From the IMG/VR virus record IMGVR_UViG_3300000549_000017, positions 1-24,085 of that record: a stretch of DNA of 24,085 nt; one strand, 5' to 3'. This DNA is from a virus. Both the position numbers and the translations under genes were made by a program. Positions 3,259 to 17,898 of this stretch are shown here, piece by piece (positions within the stretch are counted from its first letter, which is position 1; every line of letters starts with the position of its first letter). Below the pieces are notes generated by a model. That model saw nothing but the letters and a program-made list of their open reading frames with translations, was not told where the DNA came from and did not search any database.

Positions 3259-3324
3259 ATTCTTTTGAATTGTCCGGGATTGGCTTTTGCCTTCGCTGGT
3301 TTGCGCTTTTGCGCGGGAATTGAA

Positions 3325-3366
3325 AACGCCGTGTAAATCTTCGATTAAGAAGATTTACACGGCGTT
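3325..3366 (-). promoter_or_regulatory. Leader hairpin, copy A
   Basis: A perfect 18-bp inverted repeat: left arm 3325-3342 starts AACGCCGTG, six-base loop 3343-3348, right arm 3349-3366. It lies between the promoter at 3419-3447 and the scaffold-like start at 3258. No U-run follows, so it need not be a terminator. A diverged copy sits in the same relative place at 9360-9397. Confidence 0.7.
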
Positions 3367-3418
3367 AACGTGTTTGTGTCCAAGATTTTCGATGGACAAC
3401 GTAAAATTTTCAGAAAGT

Positions 3419-3447
3419 AAAGTAAACGAAAGTTTTGAAAAAAGCAA
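3419..3447 (-). promoter_or_regulatory. Putative late promoter, copy A
   Basis: On the minus strand TTGCTT (3447-3442) is separated by 17 bases from TACTTT (3424-3419). The motif is weak against the sigma-70 consensus. However, the whole block, including the shared ACTTTCGTTTAC, is conserved with the copy at 9453-9481, which is the main support. It would give a 5' leader of about 150 bases before the scaffold gene. Confidence 0.5.
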
Positions 3448-3490
3448 TAGCAAAATTGCGCTGATTCAAAATTTTTCGGTTATGCAAGTA

Positions 3491-3595
3491 ACATTAGGAT
3501 GAGTCGTTAAAACATCAGGATGAATCGTTAGAACTTTAGGATGAATAGAAAAAACATTAGAAATGGTCGCCGGAACATCGGAAATATGTGATTGG
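3491..3595. repeat. Five 21-nt tandem repeats
   Basis: Units begin at 3491, 3512, 3533, 3554 and 3575. The first three share ACATTAGGATGA-type starts and the last two are degenerate. On the minus strand the period reads as a seven-residue repeat (HPKVLTI, HPDVLTT, HPNVTCI) inside a 66-codon open frame (3466-3666) whose only early start is TTG. I do not call that frame a gene, because it has no ribosome binding site. The rest of the 3259-3706 gap holds the promoter and hairpin described separately. I see nothing else in it. Confidence 0.7.
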
Positions 3596-3706
3596 AGCGA
3601 TGGGCATCCGCCTACAATAAGCGCAAAGCGCGAAAACTTTTTTATTTCCTTTAGGCAATATTGCAAAGTGAGGACGCCGCTCGCTCAATCTATAGACGGA
3701 GACGGC

Positions 3707-4273
3707 TTACGGGTCAGTAGTTATAAAGAAGCCTTGAAATCTTGTCGAACCGAAAACGTTGGCAAGCGCGAAACTCCCCAACCCGCCGCAGCCCGCAAAG
3801 CTTTCAATCGTGGCGGAAAGCATATACTGCTGTGTCGAAGCGGCTGGAGTGAACGCATCCATATCGGTTCTCCAATACCAATCGAAAAAGCGTCCTATGC
3901 CCGGAGATTGGTAATAAAAGCCGGAAAACTGAGCGAAAATTAATTTTTTCAGCGTGCGGTTGTCTCCGTTAGGCACGCCGAAAAGCCCCAACCCCATGGC
4001 TTTTATGTTGACGTGAAAGCTTGCCTGCGCGTACCCGAAGCTTAGCCCGACAGCGGAAATCTCGCCCGAGGCAATGAAGTCGCCGCCTATCTGGATAGTC
4101 CTGGTGCCCCGCGGCATCTGGAATATCTTTGAAAAGCCGGCGATGACAGGGATTGAGCCAGCCAGATAAACTTCGTTTTGTATAGCCACAGCGCCTTCAT
4201 CATTCAGGCTGGTAATGCGATTCAATGTCCCATCTCTAATCAACCCGTACCTGGGCGGAAGCCAAAAGTCCAT
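3707..4273 (-). CDS. Unknown protein (188 aa), second gene of a moron-like pair
   Basis: A 188-residue protein beginning MDFWLPPRYGLIRDGTLNRI. It is rich in aromatic residues and glycine, with alternating hydrophobic stretches typical of beta structure (VNIKAMGLGLFGVPNG, FSGFYYQSPGIGRFFDWYWR). No signal peptide or clear membrane helix is seen. The ATG is one base after the preceding stop (TAATATG) and has GGAGAAATA upstream, so the two genes form a tight pair. The pair interrupts the usual portal-to-scaffold order and has its own promoter at 4867-4895. That points to cargo rather than a core structural gene. Family unknown. Confidence 0.6.
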   Translation of the reverse strand: MDFWLPPRYGLIRDGTLNRITSLNDEGAVAIQNEVYLAGSIPVIAGFSKIFQMPRGTRTIQIGGDFIASGEISAVGLSFGYAQASFHVNIKAMGLGLFGVPNGDNRTLKKLIFAQFSGFYYQSPGIGRFFDWYWRTDMDAFTPAASTQQYMLSATIESFAGCGGLGSFALANVFGSTRFQGFFITTDP

Positions 4274-9333: not shown

Positions 9334-9359
9334 CTGAGTTTTTGCCCTAAAATCAAAAT

Positions 9360-9397
9360 CGCCGTGTAAGTCCTCTTTTTTGAAGACCTACACAGCG
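9360..9397 (-). promoter_or_regulatory. Leader hairpin, copy B
   Basis: Arms 9360-9375 (CGCCGTGTAAGTCCTC) and 9382-9397 pair with three non-Watson-Crick positions. All three become G-U wobbles in RNA read from the minus strand and A-C mismatches in RNA read from the plus strand. The hairpin sits between promoter copy B and the PAS gene, as copy A does for the scaffold gene. Confidence 0.65.
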
Positions 9398-9452
9398 TTA
9401 GCGTGTTTTCTGCCCTAAATTAGTAGCGGGCAAACCTAAATTTTCGGATTAC

Positions 9453-9481
9453 AAGGTAAACGAAAGTTATAAAAAATGCAA
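9453..9481 (-). promoter_or_regulatory. Putative late promoter, copy B
   Basis: On the minus strand TTGCAT (9481-9476), 17 bases, then TACCTT (9458-9453), aligned with copy A at 3419-3447. The predicted leader is about 110 bases. The 9334-9660 gap contains this leader. It also contains a TTGACA at 9627-9632 that may serve the plus-strand gene at 9661, though I see no good -10 for it. Confidence 0.5.
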
Positions 9482-9660
9482 TAGAACTTTACTTTGAGCA
9501 GCATTCTGATGTATGGTGCTGACAAACTATACAGAACATTCTGCGCAATCATTCAATTCGAAGGCTTAAGTGATTTTTTAATAATTAGTCTTTGAATCCT
9601 ATTTGAAATTTCGGTGAAAACTGTTTTTGACACTTAAAAATCATTATTGATTTATAGCCT

Positions 9661-11420: not shown

Positions 11421-12545
11421 TCAAGCTATATATTCGACGATTGCCCTAACGTTTTCCGGCTTTAACGCTTCTTCTTCAGAGTCCATAATTGCTGCTCGTT
11501 CATCCAATAGTTCGTTGAATAAATCTAATAGATTTTCATCAGATAGAATTTTGTCCACTTTCTCGTTATAAGCATCTGCATATTCATTCCATTTCTGCGC
11601 CTTGAGTTCTCCATTGATTAAATAATCTGCCAAATCATAGCCGTTTTTCTTTTCCTCGCCGGTTGCCGCGTCCTCGATAATTCTGGAAGTGGTAACATTA
11701 AGCCCCATCCTTTGCGCGTCGATGGCTTCCCGGTTCCATAAATCGAATCCGTCGGCATCGGGAAAAAGAACGATTTTCCTGCCTCTGAACCGGCGCAGCT
11801 TTTCCGCCTTCAAATATGATTTCCCTCCGATTGCGAGCCAGACGAAGCTGTCGATAAACATCGAAGCGACCGCGGCGGTTTTCTCGGCTTCGACGACGGC
11901 GACGGGTTTCGATTTGTTCTTTTTAAAAAGATGCTCGCCGAAAAAGCAGATTTGGTGTTGAAACGTATCGGGCAGCACTTTCGCCCGTTTCAGCTCGTAA
12001 TGAATCCAGGAGGGATTTACCCGCTTATCGCGCTTCCCCGTTTTTTCATCGTAGGAGATAATCTTTCCGGTCCGGGCGCGTCCTTTGGCGTCAATCTGCC
12101 AGAAGACGGTTTTGCCCGTTCTGGTCGTTCCTATCAGGTAATCCTTAATCATCTTTCCGACTAGCTCCGAATCGATGAAAGACAAGAGGAAATTCAGGAA
12201 ACGGTTTTTGTCCGTGTGCTCTAGCGAGCGGACGACCAGCGAATTGTCAATTGTGTCGAAGTATTCGGCTCGCCCGTATTTGCTTACGGTATTTATGCTG
12301 CTCGCGGTCGTTACGTTCATTTTGTTTTTAGCGGCGACGTGTGCGCCGGCGGGGGCGCGCAGACCGAGAAACTCCTTCGGCGTCAGGTGATAGCCGCAGG
12401 ACGATTCGCGGTTGCAGCGCCCGACCGACGAGTCAAGATAATCTCCGATTTCGTCAATGTATCTGGCAAACTCGTTTTTCCTTCCGCATCGGGGGCAAGT
12501 GTAGCGGGAGCGGGAGCCTCTGTATTTTTCAAGCCGGTATTTCAT
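11421..12545 (-). CDS. Toprim-fold primase-like protein
   Basis: A roughly 374-residue protein (starting from the ATG at 12545; the frame also opens at a TTG one codon earlier). An N-terminal four-cysteine zinc motif, CPRCG with later GRCNRESSCGYH, resembles the zinc-binding head of primases. The C-terminal part contains a Toprim-like core: VAVVEAEKTAAV supplies the conserved glutamate, and RKIVLFPDADGFDLW supplies the DxD pair. The pattern resembles Toprim-like proteins (DUF6371 type) found in mobile elements. It probably primes or assists phage replication beside the helicase gene, with the iteron-like array between them. Primase activity itself is inferred. Confidence 0.7.
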   Translation of the reverse strand: MKYRLEKYRGSRSRYTCPRCGRKNEFARYIDEIGDYLDSSVGRCNRESSCGYHLTPKEFLGLRAPAGAHVAAKNKMNVTTASSINTVSKYGRAEYFDTIDNSLVVRSLEHTDKNRFLNFLLSFIDSELVGKMIKDYLIGTTRTGKTVFWQIDAKGRARTGKIISYDEKTGKRDKRVNPSWIHYELKRAKVLPDTFQHQICFFGEHLFKKNKSKPVAVVEAEKTAAVASMFIDSFVWLAIGGKSYLKAEKLRRFRGRKIVLFPDADGFDLWNREAIDAQRMGLNVTTSRIIEDAATGEEKKNGYDLADYLINGELKAQKWNEYADAYNEKVDKILSDENLLDLFNELLDERAAIMDSEEEALKPENVRAIVEYIA

Positions 12546-12595
12546 CAATTAATTTCTTTTTTTATCAGTAAAAACCTATGACGCGATTCGGAAGT

Positions 12596-12977
12596 GTCAT
12601 CTTCAGTCTGTGTAGTTTGTTAAACCCTTTAATATCAATCGTTTTACTGAAGATGTCGGGTAGTGTCATCTTCAGTCTTAACGACATCTTCAAAACGTCA
12701 TCTTCAGTAAAGAAATATCTGAAAATTTATAGACCTCTACCTACCCTTATCTTCCCCGTTTTTGAAAATTTCTCTTTCAAAACGGCTCGGACAAAGGCAG
12801 TTTTTGATGACGGGTTTCCAAAGAACTGAAGTTGACGCGCCTGAACTTGACGCTTCAAATGCGCTGAAGATGACACTCGCGGCATCTTCAAGCAACCTTC
12901 TGAAATAAAAGAGCTTACGGGATAAATTGTGCTGAAGATGACGTTTGCAAACGAGAGTCGCGCGCCGTCATCTTCAA
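12596..12977. repeat. Iteron-like array of an 11-mer, both orientations (likely origin)
   Basis: The 11-mer GTCATCTTCAG or its reverse CTGAAGATGAC occurs at 12596, 12647(-), 12665, 12683, 12697, 12826(-), 12841(-), 12864(-), 12881, 12932(-) and 12967. Five copies are exact, three have one mismatch and three have two. The left cluster is mainly plus and the right cluster mainly minus. An AT-rich centre carries an 8-bp inverted repeat (12760-12767 and 12775-12782). The array fills the 430-base gap between the primase-like and helicase genes, which suits a replication origin or operator set. Confidence 0.75.
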
Positions 12978-12978
12978 A

Positions 12979-14088
12979 TCAATTCTCGGCTTCCGAATGA
13001 TTGTCCGCCTCGGCTTCGAGAAGCTCAATCGGGAGCTTCCATTTCCATTTGACGTCGCCGCCGAAATAGCCGCCGGTCTTAAAGACGATGACGCCCAGCT
13101 TTTGCCGCGCGGTTCTTAAAGAGCGCTCGGTAATGCCCAAATCGTGAGCCTCCTTCTGCACCTCTTTGGCGCATCGCTCGCCTTCTTTTAATGCTTCGCG
13201 CAGGAACTTCATCGCCTCACGCCACCCCGCCTGATTGTCCTGGTTTTCCGGCTTGAACGCCGTGAGAATTTGCGTCGCGGTCAAATCGGACGTTCCGAGC
13301 CAGAACAAGCCTTCGTGCGTTATCTCGTAGCCCAGGGACTCGCCCTTCATCGCGTAATTGCATTTGTCGTGAATAAACGCTCCCTTCGTTCTGCTCTGCG
13401 GGTCACGCCCGATGATGACTTCGGAGCGGGCGATGGCGCGAAGGTCGATGCTGCCGAGTCCTGCGGCTCTGCCTTCGCCGCCGCCCTTCGCCTTTCCGAT
13501 GTGCCTGACCAGGATAAAAGAAGCGTTATACTGGACGGCGATTTCCGTCAGGCGCGTGGTGATCGGACGGATGGCGGTCGATAAATTGATATTCGTGTCT
13601 TTGGGAACGTAGGAAAAGAAAGGGTCGATAAAAACGAGCGTCGGCTTGATTTTCTCCATCAAATTCTCGAATCTGAGAAGCCCCATGTCGTCGAAGGTTA
13701 TCGGCTCGGTGACGGTCGCGATATTTTCGTGTTTCGCGCCGACCTGCGTCAGTCTCGGCTTGAGCGTGTCCTCTGCGTCGTCTTCCTCGGCGAGAAACAG
13801 CACTTTTCCCTCTTTGACATATTCGTCGGAGTTGGGGAATTTCCAGCCGTTCGAGACGACCGCTCCGAGGGCGGAGGTGATGTAGGATTTCCCGATGCCT
13901 TCCTCGCCCGTAAAAAGAGTAATCTTTTTTCGCGGGATATACGGAAACCAGAGCCATTCGACGGATTTCGCCTCGACGTCGCTCAGCCACGCGAACTTTA
14001 CCCCGCCGTCCCCGTTTTCCGTGAGACGCTCCGCTTCCGCCTTAATTTCTTCGATATTGATTGCGCTCTTACCGTCGCCAGCTCCCAT
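12979..14088 (-). CDS. RecA-like hexameric replicative helicase (AAA_25/RepA type)
   Basis: A 369-residue ATPase of the AAA_25 / plasmid RepA helicase type. Walker A is FTGEEGIGKSY (about 59-69), VLFLAEEDD follows, and Walker B is LVFIDPF (about 151-157). The conserved histidine segment is LVRHIGKAKGGGEGRAAGLG (about 193-212), then a DLRAIARSEVIIGRD strand. The C-terminal 70 residues look like a winged helix (ITERSLRTARQKLG). It should unwind DNA at the phage origin. Its stop codon abuts the last 11-mer of the repeat array. The ATG has GGGGAG upstream. Confidence 0.82.
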   Translation of the reverse strand: MGAGDGKSAINIEEIKAEAERLTENGDGGVKFAWLSDVEAKSVEWLWFPYIPRKKITLFTGEEGIGKSYITSALGAVVSNGWKFPNSDEYVKEGKVLFLAEEDDAEDTLKPRLTQVGAKHENIATVTEPITFDDMGLLRFENLMEKIKPTLVFIDPFFSYVPKDTNINLSTAIRPITTRLTEIAVQYNASFILVRHIGKAKGGGEGRAAGLGSIDLRAIARSEVIIGRDPQSRTKGAFIHDKCNYAMKGESLGYEITHEGLFWLGTSDLTATQILTAFKPENQDNQAGWREAMKFLREALKEGERCAKEVQKEAHDLGITERSLRTARQKLGVIVFKTGGYFGGDVKWKWKLPIELLEAEADNHSEAEN

Positions 14089-14163
14089 TTATACGCTCCC
14101 CGTCCCTTTTTGCTTTCTCCAATAACCCGGCGCTCCAAATTCGCCGTATTACTTTTGCCGACT

Positions 14164-14541
14164 TTAAGTCGCCCGGCTGATAATCGATCGTTTCCTTTTA
14201 ACCGGTTTGGCTTTAGCCCTTTCCTGAGCCGCCTTGTCCTTTGCCGTGCGCCTATATTCGCGCCACGCGGCGTCGACTTCCCGCTTGATAAATTTCAAAG
14301 GCTTTCTCGATACGCGCGGAATTTTATGCGTTCCGGCTTCCCCTCTTTGAACCGCGCGCTCCGAGCAGCCGAATTTAAATGCAACATAATCTTTAGTAAC
14401 AGTGGCGTTTGGAGGTAAAGCCTCAAAATAAGCGATTTCTTCCGGCGTAAATAACTTTGACTTTTTTTCAGACTTAAGCCGTTTCACCTCTACTTCAAGG
14501 TTCTCGATTCTGGCTAAAAGTTTTAGTTCAAAATCAGTCAT
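14164..14541 (-). CDS. Coiled-coil / helix-turn-helix protein (hybrid gene)
   Basis: A 125-residue basic protein. Residues 1-30 are a coiled coil, and residues about 40-95 are an excisionase- or MerR-like DNA-binding unit (NATVTKDYVAFKFGCSERAV, then GTHKIPRVSRKPLKFIKREV). The tail is Lys/Arg-rich. The first 54 residues are about half identical to the separate 50-residue fragment at 15066-15218, and the two part exactly after KDYVA. The 5' half of the gene is AT-rich with AT-ending codons (for example GTTACTAAAGATTATGTTGC), while the 3' half is GC-rich like its neighbours. This suggests a hybrid gene reconstituted when the HNH gene next door inserted. DNA binding is inferred from the fold. Confidence 0.7.
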   Translation of the reverse strand: MTDFELKLLARIENLEVEVKRLKSEKKSKLFTPEEIAYFEALPPNATVTKDYVAFKFGCSERAVQRGEAGTHKIPRVSRKPLKFIKREVDAAWREYRRTAKDKAAQERAKAKPVKRKRSIISRAT

Positions 14542-14553
14542 TTCTGCTCAAAC

Positions 14554-15057
14554 TCAGTTAGAAAAATTTAAATAAGCAAATTCGCCAAACAGTTCTTTTG
14601 CTTTTAAGTCATAAACACGCGCGGCATCTTCAGCATTTCGGTAATAACCAAGATGTATTCTTTTGCCTTTGTGCGTAATTTGAGCATGGTATTTTTGAGC
14701 TTGCTTATTCCAACAAACCCCTTTGTAACCACTCTTGTTATTTACCTGTTTGCTTCTATTTCGCAGATTCTCCGCTTTAGTAGATAAGCGAAGGTTTTTA
14801 CGCGTATTGTTCAAAGGATTGCGGTCTATGTGGTCAATACACAAACTTTCAGGAGTATTCATAATAAACTTGTGCATAGACTCAACCGTCCGCTTTCCTT
14901 TATGAACAACATTCCGTTTCGCAACGAATTTTCCGCCACCTGAGTAAGTTTTATCCTTACTGGCAAACCATTTATAAACCAAAACTCTTTCGGCGTCCGC
15001 CTCATCAATGATTGCAGTTTGCCCTTGTGTTAATGGAACTTCGATAATTTTGCTCAT
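14554..15057 (-). CDS. HNH homing-type endonuclease with AP2 DNA-binding domain
   Basis: A 167-residue protein counted from the ATG at 15057 (the frame also opens with a TTG at 15069). An N-terminal domain contains WFASKDKTYSGGGKFVAKRN. The HNH nuclease core is MHKFIMNT, then CIDHIDRNPLNNTRKNLRLS (H62, D75-H76, N88). The C-terminus is a clear AP2 domain: SGYKGVCWNKQAQKYHAQIT, then HLGYYRNAEDAARVYD and FAYLNF. This is the usual layout of free-standing phage HNH-AP2 homing endonucleases. It is AT-rich against GC-rich neighbours, and it lies between a truncated and a complete copy of the same coiled-coil/HTH gene. That is strong evidence for insertion by homing. Confidence 0.9.
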   Translation of the reverse strand: MSKIIEVPLTQGQTAIIDEADAERVLVYKWFASKDKTYSGGGKFVAKRNVVHKGKRTVESMHKFIMNTPESLCIDHIDRNPLNNTRKNLRLSTKAENLRNRSKQVNNKSGYKGVCWNKQAQKYHAQITHKGKRIHLGYYRNAEDAARVYDLKAKELFGEFAYLNFSN

Positions 15058-15065
15058 AATTTTAT

Positions 15066-15218
15066 TCAAGCGACGTAATCCTTGCCGACCGTCGCCGTCG
15101 CGGGAAGCCGTTCGAATTCATTGGCAATGTCTGCCGCCGATTTTTCGGACTTCAAACGCTCGACCGTTTTTTCGAGGTCGTCGAGCCGCTTCCAGACTTT
15201 TTCTTCAAATTCACTCAT
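15066..15218 (-). pseudogene. Truncated 5' half of the coiled-coil/HTH gene, cut by the HNH insertion
   Basis: A 50-codon frame from the ATG at 15218 to a TGA at 15066. The product starts MSEFEEKVWKRLDDLEKTVE and ends LPATATVGKDYVA. It aligns along its length with residues 1-54 of the 14164-14541 protein, sharing roughly 28 residues including RLKSEK and KDYVA, and stops exactly where the HTH should begin. Codons are GC-rich like the older phage genes. It overlaps the stop of the preceding gene by 8 bases, so it may still be translated. I read it as the original 5' end of the gene, displaced by the endonuclease. It could alternatively be an independent small paralogue. Confidence 0.65.
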
Positions 15219-15660
15219 CGCCGGATTGTTTGACCTTTTCGTAAAATTTCCTGACCGCGCTTAAAAGCTCGAATCCTTCTTTTTCGAGTTCGGCTTTGCT
15301 GTATCCGCCTTTCAAATTGAGCTTGACCAAATCGCCGAGCTCGTCGAAAATCTTTTCAATCAATTCGGCGAACTGCTCTTTTAAGGTCGGCTCGTCTTTG
15401 CGGTGACGGCTTCGCTCGCGTTCGAGAATTATCCAGAGACGCTCTTCCATTTCCGGCGAGAACTTCATCGCCGCCTGCAAAATTCTCATCACCTCGATAA
15501 ACGGGTTCGGGCGGCGCGCGTCCGATACGTTGAACTGGCGCGAAAGCCCGGACGAGTCGTTTTCCTTCATATAGCCGGAAATTCCGCTGACCGCGCCGGG
15601 GTTATCCTTGAAGAGCATATAAAGCTCCATTTCCGCTTTATCGAAATCGTGTTTTTTCAT
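15211..15660 (-). CDS. Hypothetical helical early protein (149 aa)
   Basis: A soluble, helical, charged protein. I use the ATG at 15660 because AGG lies 7 bases upstream, and the longer frame only adds six residues from a TTG. The N-terminal third has MKKHDFDKAEMELYMLFKDN, and the middle has FIEVMRILQAAMKFSPEMEE, LWIILERERSRHRKDE. The C-terminal half is likely coiled (LKEQFAELIEKIFDELGDLV). It belongs to the leftward early operon between the winged-helix gene and the interrupted HTH gene. I recognise no family. Confidence 0.6.
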   Translation of the reverse strand: MKKHDFDKAEMELYMLFKDNPGAVSGISGYMKENDSSGLSRQFNVSDARRPNPFIEVMRILQAAMKFSPEMEERLWIILERERSRHRKDEPTLKEQFAELIEKIFDELGDLVKLNLKGGYSKAELEKEGFELLSAVRKFYEKVKQSGDE

Positions 15661-15683
15661 AAACAAACCTGAGAACAAAAATT

Positions 15684-15698
15684 GGCTTCAAATAAGCC
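15684..15698 (-). terminator. Small intrinsic terminator-like hairpin
   Basis: On the minus strand, GGCTT and AAGCC (15694-15698 and 15684-15688) pair around ATTTG, with A-rich sequence before and AATTTTT after. It lies between the winged-helix/zinc gene (ends 15758) and the next gene (starts 15660). The 5-bp stem is short, so it may be leaky and allow operon read-through. Confidence 0.4.
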
Positions 15699-15757
15699 TT
15701 TTCAAATAAAAACCGTTCCGTTATTCTCTTTAGCGGTTCTTTGAAAATCTATTTTTT

Positions 15758-16156
15758 TTAACTGACTGCCGCGAGACTTTCGGTTTCCAGACACGGCGCG
15801 CAGGCGCAAATGCCGAGATAACAAATTGAGCCGTCGGGAAAATCCTTGTAGGGCGCCGTAAAATTGCAAAAGCTGCATACCCTTTCTTTTTCTTCGACGG
15901 GAAGCCGCCAGACGCCGCAGTGACTCGCAAAGCCTTCAATCCCGATATAATCGGACGTGCGGACTGACTTGACGGGAGGCTCGACGCACTCGACTAAGCC
16001 GAGCGTTTCGAGCCTGCGAAGATGGCGAATCGTCGTCGTCCGGTTCGCGCCGATTATTCCGACCGAGCTTATGCCTCCGCGCGACTCAAGGAAATCGAGA
16101 ATCTCCCTGCCCGTCGGCGAAATCTTTGGTTTTTGTGTCTGCATAGTAGGGTTCAT
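15758..16156 (-). CDS. Winged-helix regulator with C-terminal zinc motif
   Basis: The first ~70 residues fit a winged helix-turn-helix of MarR/GntR-like form: ISPTGREILDFLESRGGISS, NRTTTIRHLRRLETLGLVEC. The C-terminal part holds cysteines in CSFCNFTAPYKDFPDG followed by CYLGICACAPC, a probable zinc site. Likely a DNA-binding regulator of the early operon. Two ATGs (16156 and 16144) are possible and neither has a ribosome binding site. The frame also opens upstream with a TTG. A 60-base imperfect palindrome covers the region just before the start, so the start may lie in or right after a hairpin. This could make expression structure-dependent. Confidence 0.65.
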   Translation of the reverse strand: MNPTMQTQKPKISPTGREILDFLESRGGISSVGIIGANRTTTIRHLRRLETLGLVECVEPPVKSVRTSDYIGIEGFASHCGVWRLPVEEKERVCSFCNFTAPYKDFPDGSICYLGICACAPCLETESLAAVS

Positions 16157-16210
16157 TGACTCAATCAAGGGCAAGGAATCTAGTCCCTGCCCTTTGTTCA
16201 ATCAATGAAC
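16151..16210. promoter_or_regulatory. 60-base imperfect palindrome between two early genes
   Basis: Pairing each base with its mirror across 16151-16210 gives 23 of 30 complementary positions, including a perfect 9-bp outer stem (GTTCATTGA with TCAATGAAC) and a 7-bp inner block (AAGGGCA with TGCCCTT). It begins 2 bases after the stop of the gene ending at 16213 and overlaps the candidate start of the next gene. It could be a terminator-attenuator or an operator. Confidence 0.6.
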
Positions 16211-16212
16211 GC

Positions 16213-17898
16213 TTATGCCGCTTGCGCTCGCTCCCTTTGTTTTTGGTCGTGAATCAAACCTTGTTTAATGACTTCCGGCGACTTTAATTTCTCGCTCAAT
16301 TCATTACCGCAAATTAAGTCGAGCTGCCCGACAACTGCATTAAACAGGTCTTCCGGCGTTTTAGGATTTTCCAGTATTTCAGACAGGCATTTCGCTAACT
16401 TAGTAAGCTGCGTATCGTCTGTGTTTAAGTCTGCTGCCGAAGTTACGGATGCGGTTTTGGACTCAAACCGCTTCGCATATTGATTGAGTTCTTCACCGAC
16501 CTCCGTGCCGATAAACACGTCTGCAAATCCGTCAATCGAATCCAAAATGCCTTCGGCATAGATGGAGTTAAGCGAGTCGATTATTTTCGGGAAGGCGACT
16601 CTGAGAATGTCGGTATCGAAGTCGATTCCCATTCCGGCGTGATTCGCCGCCGCAAGAAGCAGGCTCTCAAGCGCATCTTTCGTATCATCGGAAACTTTTT
16701 CGCTGTCTAAGATATGGCAGATGTCGTTGGTGATTCTCTCCAGACGAAGCCGGTCGAGTTCTTCTATTGTCGCTGATTTAGATTGTTCGGCGCGCTTATT
16801 TTCCCACATCTCCCAAGGCTTGCCACTTTCTCGACGTGACCAATATTCACGGATAACCTCTTCTACGTATTCAGCGGAAATGTTTACGTCATTATTTATT
16901 CCGCAATCCCACGACGTTTGAAAAATGCCGTCGGCAAGACAATTAACAATCCTGTGCGGAACTGATTTATTATAAAAAATATCGTTGATTTTATTCGCCA
17001 TCGAAACGACGCAATCGTTATTATCTTGGATTTCTTCGGTCTGCCTTTTAATCTGCAAGCCTCGCACAGATTCACGAAGTAACGCTTCGCTGATAGCTTC
17101 GCGGGAAACCTCTATAACCAGTCTTTCGCCCGCCATATCATTAAGCGAATCGTATAGCGTATTGAGAAAGCGCGACGGAATGTCCGCATTATTGATAAGA
17201 GCATGGACTAAGCCCGACAAATCGTTTTTGTGAACATAATCCGCTATTGGTTTTGCGTGTTCGGATTTTGAGCCGAACATGGAAGTTTCCTGCGGAGTTT
17301 CCGGTGTAGATTTGATAGTTTCCAATGAGGCTGGAAAGACTACTTCAAGCGTGAAACGTCCGTCTTTTCGCAAACTGGAGGTTTCTTTAACGATTGTAGG
17401 TTGAGGCGTATCATCATTTTCTTTTAATTCCCAAATTAAAGAAGAATTAGGCTGAATGAAATCGAAAGTAGTCGCTTCATCTAAATACAGACCTACCATG
17501 CTGTTTGGGTTGTAAGAGTTATCTTCGACAGCTTGTGCGTCGTAGACTTCAGTTGTTTTATCGGAAACCTGTTTTTCAGCGTGTCGCTTTAAAAGGTTTT
17601 CCATATACGCCGCGCTGGTATCATCCTCATCCTGAAAATCCGGGTCGTCGTCAGATAAATGCAAGTCGTTGAACACGGTATTAAGTCCGTCAAGAATACT
17701 GTTCTTAACCGGAACAGGTAAACCGGGGTCTCTCATAACCGCCGAAAGACGGACGGCTAACGATTCGACGCCTTCGGATGTTTTTTTATTCTTTTTGTGC
17801 CCGTTTCCGTTGCCGTTCGTGGGTTCAATCGTCGCCACGAATCCATTGCCATTACCGTTACTATTGCCGTTACCGTTTATATTTTTTTTGTTGTTCAT
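16213..17898 (-). CDS. Unknown early protein with Asn-Gly tract and five degenerate helical repeats (561 aa)
   Basis: A 561-residue acidic protein with a clear AAGGAG before the ATG. Residues 7-33 are an Asn-Gly low-complexity tract (NGNGNSNGNGNG). The rest is largely helical, with five copies of a two-helix motif near residues 47-79, 229-257, 299-330, 388-420 and 500-533. The shared pattern is two leucine-rich helices around a loop with a helix-capping Pro or Asp, for example ALINNADIPSRFLNTLYDSL and EILENPKTPEDLFNAVVGQL. Copies two to four are each followed by a second helical stretch (VSREAISEALLRES, ISAEYVEEVIREYW). No catalytic motif is seen. It is the second gene of the early operon. 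Family unrecognised. Confidence 0.65.
   Translation of the reverse strand: MNNKKNINGNGNSNGNGNGFVATIEPTNGNGNGHKKNKKTSEGVESLAVRLSAVMRDPGLPVPVKNSILDGLNTVFNDLHLSDDDPDFQDEDDTSAAYMENLLKRHAEKQVSDKTTEVYDAQAVEDNSYNPNSMVGLYLDEATTFDFIQPNSSLIWELKENDDTPQPTIVKETSSLRKDGRFTLEVVFPASLETIKSTPETPQETSMFGSKSEHAKPIADYVHKNDLSGLVHALINNADIPSRFLNTLYDSLNDMAGERLVIEVSREAISEALLRESVRGLQIKRQTEEIQDNNDCVVSMANKINDIFYNKSVPHRIVNCLADGIFQTSWDCGINNDVNISAEYVEEVIREYWSRRESGKPWEMWENKRAEQSKSATIEELDRLRLERITNDICHILDSEKVSDDTKDALESLLLAAANHAGMGIDFDTDILRVAFPKIIDSLNSIYAEGILDSIDGFADVFIGTEVGEELNQYAKRFESKTASVTSAADLNTDDTQLTKLAKCLSEILENPKTPEDLFNAVVGQLDLICGNELSEKLKSPEVIKQGLIHDQKQRERAQAA

Follow-up and report, generated by a model that had tools for sequence, protein, structure and literature searches.

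The DNA studied here, called the window, is an IMG/VR virus record of 24,085 bases consisting of a single uncultured contig. The locus of interest lies on its minus strand, where a gene at 15663-15211 is followed in order by a short fragment (fragment A), an HNH-AP2 endonuclease gene, a complete gene (gene B) and the gene of an AAA_25 ATPase (Table 1). The positions of the open reading frames, given by an earlier sequence-only reading of the window, were borne out. The ATG of fragment A overlaps the stop codon of the preceding gene (ATGAGTGA), which is the place of the native gene, directly behind this upstream neighbour.

Table 1. Features of the locus in window coordinates, with the evidence on which each assignment relies.
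Feature	Position	Strand	Evidence
Upstream neighbour gene, common to the empty-site relative	15211..15663	-	Syntenic 67% nucleotide match over 15070-16221
Fragment A, putative relic of the native 5' half; 50 codons ending in KDYVA, then TGA	15066..15218	-	Homologous to the N-terminus of gene B
Probable inserted element, comprising the HNH-AP2 gene and the replacement 5' half	15070-14372, 699 bp	-	GC segmentation; absent from L003/L004, where relic and 3' half are contiguous
HNH-AP2 gene, 167 codons from the ATG at 15057	14554..15057	-	Pfam and PHROG profile matches
Gene B, complete hybrid gene	14541-14164	-	Intact frame across both halves
Putative replacement 5' half of gene B; 54 codons, own start codon, AT-rich, synonymously recoded	14380..14541	-	GC3 0.31
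Putative native 3' half of gene B (helix-turn-helix-like protein)	14164..14379	-	GC 0.53; 67% amino acid and 67% nucleotide identity to L004
Downstream neighbour gene, AAA_25 ATPase	12979..14088	-	AAA_25 E=3.8e-23; 94% amino acid identity to L003/L004

The HNH protein matches Pfam HNH_3 with 32.5 bits, above the cut-off of 24.8, and its AP2 match (E=6.6e-7, 30.0 bits) lies just below the Pfam cut-off of 33.3. It aligns over its full length with phage HNH-AP2 proteins and matches the profile phrog_99 (PHROG 99, HNH endonuclease) with E=5.6e-43. Its start is more probably the ATG at 15057 (MSKIIEVPL) than the TTG overlapping the stop codon of fragment A. When a phage homing nuclease resides inside a coding gene, an intron or an intein is generally expected, or a gene left in pieces; free-standing phage homing nucleases are described between genes. 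A group I intron or an intein carrying the HNH gene, spliced so as to join KDYVA to FKFGC, has to be weighed here, HNH genes being common in introns. Nevertheless, a search of 12000-17000 against Rfam gave no match to an intron family at E<1, the sole hit being a viral hairpin that matched by chance, and thus no sign of the core RNA structure of a group I intron; with Pfam, the HNH protein showed no intein domain. Moreover, a spliced intron has no need of a second coding 5' half, and fragment A ends in a stop codon. Splicing is consequently regarded as extremely unlikely.

Fragment A is homologous to the first 54 residues of gene B, as the sequence-only reading had noticed. In a search within the record the two match with E = 3.3e-8, with 27 identical residues among the 50 aligned, and the homology ends after KDYVA. 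The local score of this pair is 110, versus a best score of 65 among 4,046 mismatched flank pairs from other HNH loci. As far as an intact frame and conserved residues can tell, gene B would work as a gene. A structure model of its product, with predicted helices at residues 50-57 and 61-66, weakly suggests a coiled coil plus a helix-turn-helix; its low confidence (pLDDT 60) makes it too weak for a fold search.

The search for relatives with the AAA protein led to two records, L003 and L004, which belong to one related species and share 94% identity with the window in this protein; the longer loci L005 and L006, taken from these records, show 100% identity to each other over 19 kb. In this species the upstream gene is followed by one uninterrupted gene, MSDEMRTILERIENLENEVERLKS...NATVGKDYVAYRFGCSEEAV..., and then by the AAA gene. 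KDYVA is joined directly to YRFGCSE, and neither a nuclease nor a second gene half was seen at the site. The simplest view, according to the sequence-only reading, was that an HNH gene and a foreign 5' half were inserted together, the old half becoming a relic while a hybrid gene was rebuilt, and it had proposed to look for an uninterrupted relative; the gene of L003/L004, joined exactly at KDYVA and without the HNH gene, supports this view. At the DNA level, the window matches the relative at 82% identity up to 14317; the alignment resumes at 15070 with 67% identity, and nothing aligns in between. The empty-site evidence for the gene of the window comes from one independent species, about 67% identical in nucleotides there. 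Direct peptide-pattern searches of viral and genome contigs for gene B or the HNH protein gave no matches; tblastn with gene B gave none in phages and a single one in plasmids, at E=1; a motif scan for ATVxKDYVA recovered the known relative and, apart from it, a single unrelated locus (L345). The donor of the foreign 5' half was not found by any of these searches.

Comparison with the same relative brought out a near-perfect hairpin of about 60 nucleotides at window 16151-16209, which reads TTGACTCAATCAAGGGCAAG...CTTGCCCTTGATTGAGTCAA in the relative and is 80% conserved in L003/L004, on both strands; it is probably a bidirectional terminator. A dispersed repeat of about 130-145 bp is present at window 3322-3448 and 9340-9493, and the related phage also possesses two copies (L005 8203-8346 and 13259-13401).

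The question of which half is foreign can be addressed by composition. GC3 is 0.31 in the new 5' half and 0.35 in the HNH gene, versus 0.61 in the relic, 0.57 in the 3' half of gene B, 0.65 in the upstream gene and 0.71 in the AAA gene, which reproduces the contrast between AT-rich and richer parts already perceived from the letters. A segmentation of 16201-12979 based on GC only, and blind to the genes, delimits one AT-rich block (37% versus 53% GC) whose ends, 15070 and 14372, are the two homology junctions; the resulting length of 699 bp is close to the 'about 690' bases first estimated. Where residues are identical to those of the empty-site gene, the codon is shared in 18 of 25 cases for the relic and in 11 of 31 for the new 5' half (p=0.008). 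Likewise, the 23 nucleotides before the junction agree with the empty site at 22 positions in the relic and at 16 in the rebuilt gene (counted by hand). At the protein level, the new 5' half is closer to the empty-site gene than the relic is (65% versus 52% identity), which would require a relaxed selection on the relic. Taken as sequence evidence, these comparisons support the view that the nuclease gene and the new 5' half would be foreign, and fragment A and the 3' half native. Two observations had been named beforehand as speaking against such a view: relatives carrying the two tandem genes without the HNH gene, of which none was found, and two alike halves of gene B, which in fact differ in composition and in codon identity.

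An abrupt composition change in an uncultured contig might also betray an assembly chimera of two related phages. Both junctions, however, fall at the same codon and in frame, a replacement of the 3' type is carried identically in two assemblies (L155 and L156, below), and a like layout is present in the deposited genome of the virus MetMV. A chimera is thus judged very improbable.

The layout was then sought elsewhere by comparing both flanks of each nuclease gene in a survey of over 200 HNH loci; known phages contributed eight of them, GTDB genomes 43 and IMG/VR 160. This yielded about ten additional independent cases in the sequences of phages and prophages. In some of them the replaced end is the 5' end and in others, as a mirror image, the 3' end. 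The target genes include those of the terminase large subunit, the small terminase, a holin and GMP reductase. Across the pairs the protein is kept, and identical residues often differ in codon (shared codons at identical residues: 12/29 in L233, 8/19 in L275 and 4/13 in L189).

A replacement 5' end with the relic upstream is seen in L154 (MHLSPQETVIIDYLNDGAWH / MKLSPQKRVIFDLHSDYEWH), in L189 (a small terminase matching the terminase small subunit of Arthrobacter phage Altadena), in L280 (a GMP reductase, IMPDH domain E=6.8e-56, adjoining an HNH-motif gene without Pfam match) and probably in Methanosarcina virus MetMV (L089/L111), which could also represent tandem paralogues. A replacement 3' end with the relic downstream is seen in L233 (terminase large subunit, 85% amino acid but 66% nucleotide identity, HNH_3 at 53.9 bits), L275 (holin, 82% amino acid and 66% nucleotide identity, with a frameshifted nuclease gene), L137, L114, L155/L156 (a ribbon-helix-helix-like gene, with 100% identity between two separate assemblies) and at a second site of L280, where the nuclease gene is broken. 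An uninterrupted relative of the L137 gene is present in Pseudomonas phage FBPa19 (L346). This relative ends in QANQRAERKGYGA, the downstream relic in QANQRAERNRYGA and the rebuilt gene in QANERAEFKRYGN; by this comparison it is the relic, closer to FBPa19, and not the rebuilt end that keeps the native end. Relatives of the large-terminase end of L233 occur in 237 phage records, at one place in each. No convincing fragment was seen in the known phages L337-L342, L088, L090, L092 and L093.

Some of these loci show further peculiarities. The region L280:4600-9250 is crowded with selfish genes: the HNH-motif gene that rebuilds the GMP reductase gene at its 5' end, an intein-like insert of LAGLIDADG type within the GMP reductase gene and the broken HNH gene with its 3'-end relic. 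In L189, the rebuilt small-terminase gene (3435-3843) appears frameshifted at a TTTT run, and the large-terminase reading frame downstream seems, by eye, to contain an intein-like insert. At L153:1550-1936, a gene not recognized as a nuclease has the two copies of a similar partial duplication on either side (MVKAGKIKSDQAHQNALHWM / MARARKVKSDGAAQGAVHWV).

Several candidates were discarded. L124 is an artefact, probably a planctomycete C-terminal motif; L105, L226, L132, L288 and L272 are artefacts of GC-rich frames, and L152 of a simple repeat. L181 was rejected as probably an ordinary tail-gene repeat and L251 as probably a non-coding repeat. An alignment of nine HNH sequences proved too diverse as a scan query.

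Statistically, random pairing of flanks between loci predicts 0.28 scores of at least 52, versus 11 observed, some of which are GC-rich artefacts. A within-genome control has a heavier score tail, produced by GC-rich frames and intragenic repeats, and a position-constrained scan before filtering gave a modest excess only. After removal of low-complexity and GC-rich alignments, scores of at least 46 were reached by 9 of 191 HNH genes versus 6 of 1,324 other genes; the p value of 1.7e-5 is only a guide, as the cases were already known when the filters and score cut-offs were fixed. Among the nine, at least one is an artefact (L272, mentioned above) and L251 is doubtful; the highest-scoring 'other' gene is the nuclease-like one in L280. 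Since the within-genome null is weaker than the mismatched-flank null, the claim of recurrence relies mainly on the inspected loci, in addition to the filtered test.

These loci bear on a further explanation, in which a tandem duplication came first and the HNH gene later entered the upstream copy, whose 3' half was lost, with nothing being rebuilt. Two homologous copies do flank the HNH gene, tandem paralogues are common in phages and L089 could be read in this way. On the other hand, the relative carries just one copy; the HNH gene and the downstream 5' half are of the same composition, while the downstream 3' half has that of the genome; in the cases inspected, the homology of the relic goes no further than the nuclease gene; and mirror cases of the 3' type exist. 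A prior duplication seems distinctly improbable.

The locus is likely to be occupied by a homing element of 699 bp in which an HNH-AP2 endonuclease gene is combined with a recoded 5' half, foreign in origin, of the target gene, and which entered this gene after the KDYVA codons. This interpretation builds on the insert, the uninterrupted gene of the relative, the displaced native half, the in-frame hybrid, the foreign composition and the layout at about ten other loci, all of them read from sequence. From these we infer cleavage of the uninterrupted allele and immunity of the rebuilt one. The nuclease would cut the uninterrupted allele near the junction codons of KDYVA. Repair from an element-bearing genome would follow, with the native 5' half (the later relic) and the 3' half acting as homology arms, and would copy in the nuclease gene together with the replacement half, giving a hybrid gene with recoded junction DNA. 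The recoded half would restore the protein and remove the cleavage site, and may be too diverged in DNA for a recombination with the relic that would loop out the element. Weighing against a homing element are the AP2 match below the Pfam cut-off, a donor of the new half that escaped the sequence searches, a single empty-site species, the modest excess of the unfiltered constrained scan and a new half that is more similar in protein to the relative than the relic is.

Ordinary intronless homing has also to be considered. A free-standing HNH gene would have been co-converted beside a resistant allele, and the upstream fragment would be the by-product of one illegitimate crossover, without any portable unit. 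It is established that free-standing nucleases of phages can be accompanied by co-conversion of a resistant allele next to them (PMC12724721 citing Belle 2002; PMC2988022). The same sources describe SegF, SegG and Mob as free-standing nucleases whose recipient allele is thought to become resistant through donor sequence, which resembles the phage element, and place the nuclease gene outside the target gene, with no split gene or relic half. In the window, the nuclease lies inside the split gene and separates it from its native 5' half, and the layout recurs at several loci with relics adjoining the nuclease. As a full account this process appears improbable; it is also plausible as the founding event of the homing element, which may have come from a phage with an HNH gene ahead of a resistant allele.

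The closest parallels are found in fungi. The sequence-only reading had compared the locus with Allomyces atp6. The two are indeed built alike, but Allomyces is not the sole closest case, the WHO elements of yeasts being also close mechanistically (PMC7282813). In Torulaspora and Lachancea yeasts, this type of homing works on FBA1, and the chimera was shown to be resistant to cleavage (Coughlan 2020, PMC7282813), a resistance that is inferred for the phage element. Both consist of a nuclease gene and a replacement target end, with a full-length chimera on one side and the displaced native fragment on the other; in the window, the chimera and native fragment flank the nuclease and the uninterrupted allele exists in relatives (one species). 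WHO elements replace the 3' end of FBA1 and use an HO-like, intein-derived zinc-finger nuclease, unlike the element of the window. With its HNH-AP2 nuclease, a different gene and a replaced 5' end (either end elsewhere), the element of the window works like a WHO element without being a member of this family. The mobile ORF hybrids of fungal mitochondria, first known from Allomyces atp6 and known also from Glomus atp6/atp9/cox2/nad3 (Beaudet 2013, PMC3630166), similarly associate an endonuclease ORF with a foreign gene end, a native end turned relic and a similar protein with diverged DNA; they differ in being C-terminal, of LAGLIDADG or GIY-YIG type, and mitochondrial. Finally, engineered home-and-rescue or cleave-and-rescue drives also combine a nuclease cutting a gene with a recoded, cut-resistant rescue copy, but they are synthetic, CRISPR-based and used in animals (PMC7968924, PMC7951863).

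A homing gene that rebuilds the end of its target seems not to have been described earlier in phages. No such arrangement was found by a literature search to which subscription papers were mostly out of reach, so that its absence is no proof, or by term searches in a survey of phage homing nucleases (PMC10448857), a T4 review (PMC2988022) and a lactococcal HNH study (PMC12724721). The sequence-only reading knew of no common phage precedent; with the about ten further phage or prophage cases, the locus is not unique.

An element repairing the gene that it splits would provide another way into coding sequence. The chances are about even that phage HNH genes are commonly portable home-and-rescue modules, composed of a nuclease and a recoded target end of either polarity, that can enter essential genes (terminase, holin, nucleotide metabolism) by homing and need no splicing; the displaced half would then still be visible at about 5% of HNH-AP2 loci. 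Such elements would explain some of the gene fragments beside HNH genes, homing could leave hybrid phage genes behind, and a predicted cut site follows from each case. They would constitute a natural counterpart of the engineered home-and-rescue drives.
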